Source: Tetradesmus obliquus (lineage: Eukaryota > Chlorophyta > Chlorophyceae > Sphaeropleales > Scenedesmaceae). Taken from it: DNA of 64,000 nt. Where the stretch lies: contig CP126203.1 in the NCBI GenBank assembly GCA_030272155.1, forward strand, positions 2,666,001 through 2,730,000, read 5' to 3'. The notes below the pieces were generated by a model. That model was not told the DNA's origin and did not search any database. It worked only from the letters and a program-made list of their open reading frames with translations. Positions 56,936 to 64,000 of the stretch are shown piece after piece. A program made the translations under genes and the position numbers. Each line of letters starts with the position of its first letter. Positions within the stretch are counted from its first letter, which is position 1.

Positions 56936-57215
56936 CGAGGCTCACAATGCAGGAGTGATCACAGCCGCCACATCCATCTGCTCACAATGCAGGAGTGACA
57001 CAGCCGCCACATCCATCTGCTCACAATGCAGGAGTGATCACAGCCGCCACATCCATCTGCACACAATGCAGGAGTGATCACAGCCAACATAACGAACGGC
57101 TCACAATGCAGGAATGATCACAGCCAACACAACGAACGCCTCAGAATGCAGGAGTAATCACAGCCGCCACATCCATCTGCTTACAATGCAGGAGTGATCA
57201 CAGCCAACAGCCCCA
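56936..57215. repeat. 40-bp tandem repeat, about seven copies
   Basis: Units begin CTCACAATGCAGGAGTGATC and continue with CACAGCCGCCACATCCATCTG or a variant with CACAGCCAACACAACGAACG. The two sub-types alternate irregularly. The array lies downstream of the PPR-SMR-cyclin gene stop, probably in or just beyond its 3' untranslated region. One unit carries TTACA (57181-57185), which reads TGTAA on the gene's strand and could serve as its poly(A) signal. Confidence 0.9.
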
Positions 57216-57697: not shown

Positions 57698-60667
57698 TCA
57701 AGTAGAAGCAGAAGCCTTCACAGCCACTGCAGCAGCAGCAGCAGCAGCCTGGCCGTCCTTCACAATTACTGCTGCAAGCTTTGCAGTCACCTCTTCCTCT
57801 GCTGCATCAGCTACTGCCACCTCCACATCTGCTGCACCACACGCCACACCCACCACAGCAACAGCAGCAGCAGCAGCATCAGGCTCTGCAACGACAGCCA
57901 CCTCAGCAGCAGCAGCAGCAGCACGCCGCGCGCCCGCCATCTGCTTGATCAGCCGCTGCGCGCCATTGATCGCAGCCGCCAGCTCCGGTGTGCGCGCGTT
58001 GCTGTAGCCGGTCAATCCTGCAAGGCTGCTGGGCCAGAAAGGCAGCAAGCCCTGCTGCAGGCGCTCGCAGTACAGCACTGCAGCAGCAGTGATTGTGGGC
58101 CTGTAGTTGAGGAACTCTGATTCCATTGCTGCTCGGGAGATGAGCCGGATGGTGTCTGCAATGGCAGCCTGGGTGCTGCTGCAGGAGCCATCTGCCTGGA
58201 AGGCAAAGCCGAGCCGCTCCAGGTACAGCTTCAAGCAGCGCAGCGCCTGCAGGAAAGTCAAACAGAAGTCAAACATGAGTCAAACCAAAGTCAAACTATA
58301 TTATCCTTATTCGGCGAAAGGTGGGGTGGCTGAACATGACCAGAGTCTGGTTTGAAGAGAGCACGGAATGGGAACAGTGGCTGGAAAGGCCTCAGGTGCA
58401 AGGGGTTGCCAGTGTGCAGGGGAAGCAGCAGCAGCAGCACTGAAGCACAGCTTGCAGGACAAGGGGCGCAGGTGGAGCAGGCTGCAGGAAGTCGAGGCTG
58501 CTTGCAGGAAAGCAGTCAGCAGCCTCATAGCATGTTACGATGTGCTACTCACGCTTGTTGCGCTGGTGTCAGACTTGAGCGCCTGCTGCAGCTGCTGCTG
58601 CAGCTCTGCTGCCTCACTGCTGCTGCAGCAGCCCAGTGCAGCGCAGATGTCAATCAAAGAGGGGGCAGGCGTCTGCAGACCCGCGCTGCTGATAGTAGTG
58701 GCCAAGCAAGCAGCTGCCAGGCAGGTGAGCCCATCCTCCTGGACCTGCAGCAGCAAACAATCAACCCAGCGGCATGAGTGAGGTGTTATTACTGTTGCTT
58801 CTACTGCTGCTTCTGTCTTTTTACGCGCTAGAAGAGTGAGCTGGGGGCACAAGCAGGAGGGTAGCAGGAGCAGGACCAGCAGCATCACTTGTCTTGTGAA
58901 AGATGGCCTACACGCAGCGTGTTACTTTGCATCAGTACAGTGTGTAATACAGCAAGCACGTGGAAGCGCTTCAGGCCAGCAGAATGTTCGTGCTAATAAC
59001 AAATCAGCACCAGCTGCTCTGGTTCTCACCTTCATGCTCGCACTCATCGCCCTGTCCATGAGCAGCACAGCATCATGTGCCACATCGTCCCTGATCTTCA
59101 GCTTGCTCCCAGCCTCCAGCAGCAGCGACACGAGCCCAGCACGTGCAGCAGTGTAGCCCATGCCCATCGACTGCACGGACAGGTTGTGTGTGTTCTCAAA
59201 CTGCTTCACTGCAGCAATGGAGTCCCTGCAGCGCTTCTCCAGTAAGGTCTCCTCGGCGAGCTCTGCTTTGCTGCCGGCGCTGCTGCCCTTGCCTGTGTAT
59301 GCGCTGCTGGCAAACGGCTTCAGCAGCTTCTGCACGTTCTCCTGCGGTGGTCAAACGCGGTCAAACGTGGTCAAAGACAGCAGCAGGCAGGGCCAAGGTA
59401 TGGTCATACTTCAAGTCCACCTGAGCGCTCGTTCTGTGGACAGGCTACAGGCGTATGTGCAGTAACAAAAACTGTTATGCAATCACCACACATGGTGAAC
59501 ACAGGCTGCTGATAATCAGTTCTGTCGCAGAGGATCCAGCTGTTGTGTGGGTTTGCAATGGGTTGCAATCCACTGTGTCACTTTATGTTATTCAGCCTTT
59601 TTAAAAAGGTGAACTGCAGCTCACCTGCTGCAGCCACTGAGATACAGCTGCGCCAGACGCCTCCAGCTTGCTGCTGCTGCTGTGTTCAGAGCCCTGAGCA
59701 GCAAAGGGGCTGTCCCAGCTCGCCAGCAGGGCAGTGGTGCTGTCGCGCAGGATGCTTGACACATGGTCTCGCTGCCTGCTGCGTCCTGTGCTGACCACCA
59801 CCCGGTCTGGCAGGGCTTGCTGCTGCTGTTGCTGCTGCAGCACACAGTCCCTGCAGGATAAGCAGGGGAACAAGACAGGCAACAAGCAGTCCCACAAGCT
59901 GAAGGTTTTGAACATTCAGCCGGATTGAGATGGCCAGCAGGCATAGCATGTACACTGCGGTATGCAGACATAATACGTACCACACAGCGTGTGACAGGTG
60001 CGGGGACAAATCCGTTGTGAGTCAGCTGTGTGGTTTGCTGTTTCTCCCGCCTGTTTCCTGCAAGCAGCGGCAGGTGTTTTTTTCTCCTTCTGCCCCCACC
60101 TGAGATCAGCAAACCAGCAGTGCAGCATCAGCATGGCCACTCCTGGAGACACGCCCTGCAAGCCAAGCTCCAGCTTGCTGGCACTAGCAGCAGGTGCAGC
60201 GCTGCCTGCAGCACTGCCTGCTGTGGGGCTACCTCCAGAAGCTGCAGAAGCAGCAGATGGGCTAGAGGGCTCTGGCTTGCTGCCTGGGGCTGCTGCTGCA
60301 GCAGCGCCGAGGCCTTCACTGCTTGCAGGAGCTGCTGCAGCCTGCTGCTGCTGAGGTGGTGGGTAAGGCAGCTGCCTGAAGTGCCCTTCCTCTACTGCTT
60401 GACGGAACAGCTGGCCTGCCTTCTGCTGTGCCCATGCCACACCAGTGTCCCACAGGACATCCAGCAGGGTGTTGTACAGGATGGCGTCTGCGTTGCACCT
60501 CTGCTCCTGCATCTTCTGGAAGGCCTGCAGCAGAACAAATATGGCAGAACAGAAGGGAGTGTCACTTTGTTATGTTATTTTGGGTTCAAATTTGGTGAGC
60601 AGGGATGGATACTGCAGCGTTGCACACTGCAGCCTGGCTTGCTGTTCAGCAGCATACATGGTAGTAG

Positions 60668-60723
<56 letters not shown>

Positions 60724-63700
60724 AGTGCCGTGCTGCAGCTGCAGCCCACCTCAAGGGCCTTCATCCACTGCCCTCCGCGCTCGTAAGCAGACACCAGTGC
60801 GGTGTATGTGACCACATCTGGCTTGCAGCCGCTGTTCTGCATCTGCTCAAACACCTCCGCAGCCTTGCCCCACTGCGCACCCTGCAGGAACCAGCAGGAT
60901 TACAAACATTAGGCATTGGTAACATCGTCTAGCCCCTGACATCATCTCCTCTACCCTTAAGGTCAGGCAGTAGCTGTCTGAGCATGCTGCGAAGCTCAGT
61001 ATGCAGCAGAGGCAGCAGCGAAAGGCCTGTGCACTCGGCCCGCTCATAACACCAGCTAGCATGCAACAAGGCACCTCATGTGCACAGCAAGCAGCAGGCA
61101 TTGCAAGGCCACTTGCGCTCTGCTTGAAACACAAACAGCAGCATATCTTGCTATATCAGCACACCTGCGCGCATGCCGTGATGAGGGAGTTGTAGGTGAT
61201 GACGTTGGGCACGCAGCGCTCCTGCAGCATCTCCGCAAACAGGTTCAGCGCCAGCTGCCACTGCCCCGCCTTCTCGCAGGCGCTGATGAGCGCCGAGTAG
61301 GTGATGACGCTACGCTCGCAGCCGGTGCGCAGCATCTCCTGGTACACCTCCATCACCTGCAGGGCGTTTGATTGTGATTTGGAAAAAAGAAAATGGTTGC
61401 CTAATCAAGTAATCAAATCCCCCTATAGACAGCTGCAGAGTGCATCTGCCTTCACAGCAAATTGCATGTTGCACAGACAGCAGAGCACATTTGATGATAC
61501 GTATGACCATGTCGGATGCGTCAGCTGCTGAAACCCCATAACACATCAACAGCTGCAGTGGGGATGACAGCTGCAGCACGCACCTTCTCCAGGCGCCCCG
61601 CCTTGCTGTGCGCGCTGATGAGCGCGTTGTAGGTGGTGGTGTTGGGCGCGTGGCCCATGCGCACCATCTCACTGTACACATCCAGCGCCTTCTGCCACTG
61701 GCCACTGGTGTTGCAGGCAATCATCAGCGTGTTGTAGGTGCGCGTCACCGGCTTTGTGTTGTTGGCGTTCATGGCGTCGATCACCTGGTTGGTTCGTGGA
61801 GGGGATTGGTGCGACAGGGACAGGAGCAGCAGCAAGCAAAGCGTAGCGTTGACGTTGCGTACATGCGGCATGCATGTGTTGAACTGGTCTTAATGCTGAG
61901 AGCACAGCACACCCAAGAACGCATATGATGCACTTGCGCTTTACATAACGGATTCCAATGGTAATAGCCACGACATACACCGCCTGCACTTCCCAAACAC
62001 CTGATCCTGTTCCTTGACCTTTTAAATTTCCTAACGTAACACAAGTATAACATGTAACACTCTCACCTTGAGTGCCTCTGCCCACTGGCCAGTCTTGCCG
62101 TGCACGTCGATGAGCGTGTTGTAGGTCACAACGTTTGGTGAGCAGCCCTCTCTCAGCAGCTCGCCATACACCTCGAGCGCCTTCTGCAGCTGCCCGCACT
62201 TGATCGCCACATTCATCAGCGCACTGCAGTGCAGCGGTTTGAACACAGCAGCATTGAGTGGTTATGTTTGCAGTGGTCCAACAGCGGCAGGAATGGGGCG
62301 CATGAGTGCGACGGAAGGGGTACAAGGCAGGCAGAATGTGGGGTGCGTTGATGCAGTGTCTCGGTTGCTGATTAAGTGAAGATTATGCCAGGGCGAGCAT
62401 GCTGAATAGAGTCAACTGCTGGCAGCTGCATTGATACAGCAGAGACACGCCTCAACGCAGCCCGCTTTTCCATCTATACATACATACACAGGGGCAGCTG
62501 CACCAGCCAGCTGCTCTCACGTGTAGGTGTGCACGTTGCGTTCCACGTTGCGCTGCCTCATCTCTGACACGAGTTCAAACGCGCGCGACAGCTCCTGCTG
62601 GTCAACGCAGAGGCTGACCATGGCTGTGTATGTGAACACGTCGCACAGCTGCGACAGCTGGTGGTCAGGCGGCAGGGCCCGCAGGAAGTCAAACAGCTGC
62701 GTGTACACGGGTGCGTGCAAGCAGAGGCAGCAGGCGGGCAGCATTTGCAGTGTTGTTGATGGGGCGTTGACTACGGGGTATGCCGGAAGTCTACTGCAGA
62801 CTGCCAAGGGGCGTTTGCCCAGCCGCTGACAGGCTGGCAGAGCTGATAATTGCCGCCTGTAACTGAATGTGCACAGCTCTGCGTGCAGCAACACGTGGTC
62901 TCCTGCAAGCTGAGTCAATACGTGCAATGCGTGCTCTGTGCAACTACGCTCTGCTAGAAACTGGCAATGTGCCAAGAACGTACTGGCAGGACGTTCCACC
63001 GGCAGCTGTCAGACATTTGAACTGCCACCCGCCATGTTTGACCGCCAACTGCCATGTTTGACCGCCGCCGTTGACCGCCAACTGCTGCTGCTCACCTCGC
63101 GTGCCCTGCGGCCGTGGCGGCCCCTTGCCAGCTCCTTCAGCAGTGCTGCCAGTCCCCTGCTGTCTAAGTTCAGCAGGCCGTCTGACAGCATCTGCCTGTC
63201 CAGTGCCTCGCCAGCTGGAGAGCGCCGCACAGCCCATGCAAACTCCTCTACTGCAGCGTCTGAGAAGTCGCCTGCGACAAACAACACGTGAAACAACCAA
63301 CCTAATCTTGTGTTGTATGCATTGCAGCGATTAGTTTAGACGGGGCACAAAGCGAGTTACAGACCATAAAGCGCGCACAGAGGCACGGCAGCAGTTAGGC
63401 AGCAGTGTTGCGGCAATCCTCCTTGCAGCAAGCCAGACAGAGCTAGGTGTCGTGTTGGTGTGCAATTACCCGCAGCCTGCATCATCAGCGTCACACTTCA
63501 GCACTCCGCAAATTGACGACTACCTTGGATCCCATCTGCTGCTTCCGCGGACTTCTGCATCTGCTGCGGACCATGCCCGACAATGCACAGCCCTGTACAC
63601 GCTGCTGGGCGGTCAGTCTGCTGCTCACCAGGCTTAGTGTTGAACACAATGTTCTTCCTGCCTCTGCCGCGGCCGCCACTGTTGCCGAAGAACTGCTGCT

Positions 63701-63999
63701 GCTGCCCTCCAAGCATGCCGCTGCCGCTGCCGCCGCTGCCCTGCCTCGTGTGCATGCCGCGCCCGCTGCCGCTGCTGTGACCGTTGCTGCCCCTGCCGCC
63801 ACCGCCGCTGGCAGGCCAGTTGGGCTTAGCGACCATATCTTGGCTGACCATGTGGCTGCTGTTGATGCCGTTGGTAGGCGGCCGCATGTTGGGCATCACA
63901 TGCTGGGGGGCCCAAGTCATCATGAGCTCAGGAGCTGCTGCTGCTGCTGCGTTTTGGGACTGCTGCACCATGCCTATGTGCGTGCCTGGCATCATGTGG
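57698..63999 (-). CDS. PPR-SMR protein with C-terminal cyclin fold, 5' end possibly outside window
   Basis: Twelve exons keep phase: 63995-63629, 63271-63096, 62696-62521, 62223-62067, 61784-61584, 61356-61165, 60881-60750, 60524-60100, 59850-59625, 59341-59030, 58744-58553 and 58246-57698. They give 1,034 residues from MMPGTHIGMV. Residues 1-122 are Gly/Arg-rich. Eight or so PPR motifs span about 185-510 (for example PNVVTYNTLIDVHGKTGQWA, RSVITYSALISACEKAGQWQ). SMR at about 583-684: LQGVSPGVAMLMLHCWFADL, STGRSRQRDHVSS, SPF, ASGAAVSQWL. Cyclin-like lobes at about 705-960: IRDDVAHDAVLLMDRAMSAS, LTCLAAACLATTIS, ESEFLNYRPTITAAAVL, PFWPSSLAGLTGYS. The tail is Ala/Val-rich. PPR-SMR proteins bind organelle RNA, and SMR can be a nuclease. 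A cyclin fold could bind a kinase. The SMR-to-cyclin junction is an ordinary in-phase intron (59342-59624). Confidence 0.75.
60669..60723. repeat. (ATC)n microsatellite, 18 copies
   Basis: An uninterrupted ATC run in the intron between exons 60881-60750 and 60524-60100 of the PPR-SMR-cyclin gene. On the minus strand it reads as a poly-Asp frame, which is not coding. Confidence 0.97.
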
Positions 64000-64000
64000 T

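Follow-up and report, generated by a model that had tools for sequence, protein, structure and literature searches.

Our analysis of a 64,000-nucleotide stretch of the Tetradesmus obliquus genome (assembly GCA_030272155.1, contig CP126203.1, positions 2,666,001 to 2,730,000 of the forward strand; hereafter the window, a piece of contig C13 in an assembly of 104.7 Mb in 17 contigs) points to a minus-strand gene whose product combines a P-class pentatricopeptide repeat (PPR) array, a pTAC2-type SMR-like block and, at the C-terminus, a cyclin fold. On balance we lean towards the view that this is a single nuclear gene and that its product acts as an RNA-tethered pseudo-cyclin in photosynthesis gene expression. 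The PPR array would bind a short RNA, single-stranded and roughly nine bases long; cutting activity would be absent from the SMR-like block, since both the LDXH and the TGXG motif are altered in it; and the cyclin fold would serve as a protein-docking platform, tethering partners to that RNA but not switching on a cyclin-dependent kinase (CDK).

Eleven exons read on the minus strand from 63271 to 57698 join into a single frame of 911 codons plus a stop, with the domain order PPR, SMR-like, cyclin. This bears out the in-frame joining of PPR repeats to a cyclin fold that a first-pass annotation of the window had proposed, and the peptides quoted there were all found in the minus-strand exons assigned to them. 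Reading of the adjoining stretch extended the gene past position 63999, where that annotation had ended it on the 5' side, to an ATG at 64262 (window numbering), just outside the window. The full model thus has 12 exons and encodes 1,123 residues, with the PPR array at residues ~290-606, the SMR-like block at 673-773 and the cyclin fold at 814-1044; an additional coding exon upstream of the ATG may exist. Every intron (11 of 11) has GT-AG borders and brings in an in-frame stop upon retention. The parts of the gene are (window coordinates):

63629..64000, minus strand: exon 1, 5' coding part (ATG outside the window at 64262), Met/His/Gln/Ala-rich low-complexity N-terminus ending in RGRGRKNIVFNTKP
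63096..63271, minus strand: exon 2, helical region preceding the PPR repeats
62521..62696, minus strand: exon 3, beginning of the PPR array
62067..62223, minus strand: exon 4, PPR repeats
61584..61784, minus strand: exon 5, PPR repeats
61165..61356, minus strand: exon 6, PPR repeats
60750..60881, minus strand: exon 7, PPR repeats
60100..60524, minus strand: exon 8, final PPR repeat, Ala/Ser-rich linker and start of the SMR-like block (KLELGLQGVSPGVAMLMLHCWFADLR)
59625..59850, minus strand: exon 9, remaining SMR-like block (VVVSTGRSRQ ... WDSPF ... LEASGAAVSQWLQQ)
59342..59624, minus strand: intron between SMR-like block and cyclin fold, 6 in-frame stops upon retention, no TGTAA
59030..59341, minus strand: exon 10, cyclin N lobe, part 1 (ARAGLVSLLLE, HDAVLLMDRAMS)
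58553..58744, minus strand: exon 11, cyclin N lobe, part 2, with Ser and Gln where ordinary cyclins have Lys and Glu
57698..58246, minus strand: exon 12, cyclin C lobe, Ala/Val-rich tail and stop

The window protein is a P-class PPR protein. The Pfam family PPR_2 matches it in 8 stretches with 306.6 bits, and the repeats run in a register of exactly 35 residues for 8 repeats, with a ninth in addition. This register is kept over the exon joins and in itself provides a check of the splicing. The two-residue pairs of the repeats (TN TN NV NN NS SN ND TD) would correspond roughly to A A ? Y C A U G by the PPR code, which we take as an unproved guess. Apart from one residue in the third repeat, the same pairs are found in L055, one of the four paralogues described below (for parts of two others, L056 and L058, the pair mapping is faulty). 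At the level of the whole genome, 33 of the 48 PPR_2 matches listed (both counts are lower bounds) fall in the five PPR-cyclin genes, which thus account for a substantial share of its PPR proteins. The other 15 listed matches are distributed among eight or nine loci.

The C-terminal region has both lobes of a cyclin, again in line with the first-pass annotation. On the spliced 265-residue region, Pfam reports Cyclin_N at 27.1 bits and Cyclin_C at 26.7 bits (cut-offs of 23 and 22 bits, respectively), with the lobes in the correct order. Within the 911-residue protein the scores of 24.4 and 22.3 lie barely above these cut-offs, and when single unspliced exons are searched Cyclin_C passes (26.2) and Cyclin_N falls below (16.4). 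None of four control sequences (one reversed copy and three of the four shuffled copies made) matched any family at E<=1, and the 59 PDB sequences that a profile built from the five family members retrieved at E<=0.1 were without exception cyclins A2, B1, D1 or E1; on these results we rejected a chance match. In the structure comparison (made with VIA-align only, here and for the SMR-like block), the 50 rows listed are all cyclin entries, although one family can fill such a list. What speaks against the cyclin reading is the phmmer search of PDB, where cyclin A2 is matched across both lobes of the spliced region at E 5.8e-4 but ranks behind a leucine-rich-repeat chain, 4r5d, which heads the list at E 1.9e-4 and also comes first when the opening cyclin exon is searched by itself (E 4e-6 vs. 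0.22 for cyclin A2). We rejected a leucine-rich-repeat reading (4r5d and a second chain, 4r6g) and attribute the similarity to shared helix composition, because the 4r5d match covers only the helices that precede and begin the N lobe, adds up weak repeats of which none is significant singly, and is missing from the 59 matches of the family profile. Searched against plasmids, viral contigs and the genomes of bacteria and archaea, the window C lobe found no relatives.

A search of the genome with the cyclin region identified four further loci (L055, L056, L057 and L058), all on contig C1 and all with the same domain order of PPR exons, SMR-like stretch and cyclin. Both lobes occur in order in each family member, and both cut-offs are passed by the window copy only: L055 scores 28.8 bits for the C lobe and 16.3 for the N lobe, L056 16.5 and 28.6, L057 24.2 and 13.2, and L058 20.1 and 14.8, respectively. 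We set aside a weak cyclin match at C14:3186249, which scores 17.4 bits and contains one stop; in the region around it (L059), nothing matched the window protein at E<=1e-3.

The SMR label that the first-pass annotation had given to the middle block fared less well. At E<=10, Pfam SMR (PF01713) matched none of the five proteins of the family, a profile of the family's SMR-like blocks had no PDB match at E<=10, and the best that profile comparison could offer was an hhalign probability of 18% (E 0.0013) against a true SMR pair, vs. 0.1% (E 0.69) against the cyclin profile, so that SMR identity by sequence had to be abandoned. What argues for it is structure, and that in a single paralogue: the model of the L056 block resembles the SMR fold and is closest to PAP2/pTAC2. 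The window protein carries LELG in place of LDXH and TGRS in place of TGXG, and thus departs from both motifs of the active domain. In the part of the source available to us, LDXH is tied to DNA cutting and TGXG to RNA cutting in SOT1, and pTAC2 is likewise altered, with VDVH and SVRG (PMC6662315). Genome-wide, Pfam SMR has a single match with E<=0.001, and this lies elsewhere, at C1:2732438-2732605 (L001, 28 bits); it carries IDLH and TGHH at the positions of the two motifs and resembles human N4BP2.

Several other explanations have to be weighed against an RNA-tethered pseudo-cyclin. The intron that separates the SMR-like block from the cyclin fold, with its 6 in-frame stops, would fit two adjacent genes misread as one, namely a PPR (or PPR-SMR) gene ending after 59625 and, next to it, a cyclin-like gene in its own right. 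However, the same domain order recurs at 5 loci, and in two of them the SMR-like end and the first cyclin helices are encoded in one uninterrupted frame (L055 7901-8626 and L058 1420-2067; one tblastn match in L055 spans the junction, query 548-679, at E 4.7e-20). We consider such an artefact highly improbable and discarded it on these grounds, which also answer, as well as DNA can, the proviso of the first-pass annotation that transcripts ending after the SMR exon and starting anew before the cyclin exons would contradict a single gene. The distribution of TGTAA, the green-algal polyadenylation signal, argues weakly in the same direction, being absent from the 59342..59624 intron and present at 57185, past the stop codon (it also occurs in three other introns). 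A TFIIB-type role, in which the cyclin fold would bind nucleic acid or a transcription factor and act in organelle or nuclear transcription beside the pTAC2-like SMR block, appears quite unlikely. The similarity of the SMR-like model to a subunit of the plastid RNA polymerase is compatible with it, and one paralogue even gave a TFIIB match, albeit at noise level (E 6.8), but the family profile matches in PDB are kinase-binding cyclins only, and the VIA-align rows listed point the same way (while leaving room for other families).

As to kinase binding, we aligned the PPR-cyclins with the genome's ordinary cyclins: all 5 PPR-cyclins retain the core Arg, and 4 of 5 the core Asp. A Lys and a Glu, at positions that we take to be the CDK contacts K266 and E295 of cyclin A, are both kept in 4 of 4 ordinary-cyclin rows (one of these rows is a composite). 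At these positions the window protein has Ser and Gln, L055 has Ala and Ser, and L057 has His and Val; L058 keeps the Glu and not the Lys (near which its exon border is uncertain), and L056 keeps both, its core Asp being replaced by Gln. The window copy seems to have lost the kinase-gripping residues, and L056, because it retains both Lys and Glu, would be the family's best candidate for a working kinase partner. The kinase link suggested by the first-pass annotation is weakened, since the contact pair common to the ordinary cyclins is missing from the window protein. A working cyclin, whose C-terminal fold would bind and activate a CDK or CDK-like kinase and whose PPR array would aim that kinase at RNA, could draw on the two-lobe fold related to cyclin A2, on the conserved core residues and on the existence of L056; given the replacement of both contact residues in the window protein, we find it rather unlikely. 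More doubtful still is a green-algal class of RNA-guided cyclins and pseudo-cyclins, in which at least one member (L056) would recruit a CDK to its RNA, with the window gene among the silent members that would compete with it or buffer it; if true, it would tie a cell-cycle kinase to particular transcripts. The presence in one family of copies with and without the kinase-contact residues allows a direct test of whether the cyclin fold has turned into an RNA-tethered platform or still holds a kinase.

The cellular setting of the RNA-tethered pseudo-cyclin that we favour would most likely be the expression of photosynthesis genes. The PPR-cyclin architecture is already known by annotation, as the available part of one report uses the term 'PPR-Cyclin protein' for Chlamydomonas PPR4 (Cre12.g511400) and PPR6 (Cre10.g437150) (PMC9368121). 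The former gene, described as 'Cyclin-related protein with PPR domain', appears in the accessible part of another study as one of 253 higher-confidence candidates that acetate-requiring mutants had yielded, and overlaps are marked for mutant sets of maize and Arabidopsis (PMC8448359); it is this candidacy that makes photosynthesis gene expression the likeliest process. Several observations weigh against our reading. The same source marks Cre12.g511400 'O', i.e. not predicted to be plastid-targeted; its candidacy derives from manual curation of insertion sites, and no complementation was found in the part available (PMC8448359). The first 40 residues of the window model lack Lys and Arg altogether and include a single Asp or Glu, an N-terminus that, judged by composition, does not suit an organelle presequence (in the four paralogues, with starts read by eye, the first 40 residues contain 2-4 Lys+Arg and 2-5 Asp+Glu). 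The organelle link suggested by the first-pass annotation is thus no more than a possibility. Finally, the window protein keeps the core Arg and Asp as working cyclins do, so that kinase binding via other contacts is possible. In the open-licence literature searched we found neither a function for a PPR-cyclin nor an SMR part in such a protein, which does not prove their absence; the pTAC2-type SMR-like block, the occurrence of five such genes in one genome and their division by kinase-contact residues were likewise not found there.

A point of nomenclature concerns SMR11 and SMR4, which we take to be SIAMESE-RELATED cell-cycle inhibitors and not SMR-domain proteins. A gene table in the available part of the above report lists Arabidopsis SMR11 and SMR4 next to PPR4 and PPR6 (PMC9368121), a pairing that may reflect a name mix-up.

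Other features of the locus include a pure GAT/CAT triplet run of 18.7 copies (60668-60723) in the intron between exons 7 and 8, which would encode poly-Asp upon retention, and the low-complexity Ala/Val-rich tail that follows the cyclin C lobe (57698-57935). Downstream of the gene lies a minisatellite with a 40-base unit in 6.7 copies (56940-57205). A gene for a rhodanese-like domain protein (PF00581, 53.3 bits; exons joined by eye) is located just upstream on the same strand (L003:1751-4400).

Among known systems, Chlamydomonas PPR4 and PPR6 likewise unite PPR repeats and a cyclin in one protein, as far as a comparison by annotation description only can tell. The order of PPR repeats followed by an SMR-like block is common to the window protein and the plant PPR-SMR proteins GUN1 and SOT1. 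For these, the available part of the source gives the motifs LDLH/TGWG and LDVR/TGTG, respectively (vs. LELG/TGRS in the window protein), and describes no cyclin, in contrast to the cyclin fold seen here (PMC6662315). PAP2/pTAC2, the PPR-SMR subunit of the plastid RNA polymerase, provides the closest structure to the SMR-like model of L056. Unlike PAP2/pTAC2, the window protein continues into a cyclin fold after the SMR-like block, and it has a start free of Lys and Arg over its first 40 residues; sequence profiles show no link between the SMR parts of the two. With cyclin A2 and other CDK-binding cyclins it has in common the two-lobe fold and the core Arg and Asp, and it differs from them by the lack of the Lys/Glu pair and by its large N-terminal PPR region.
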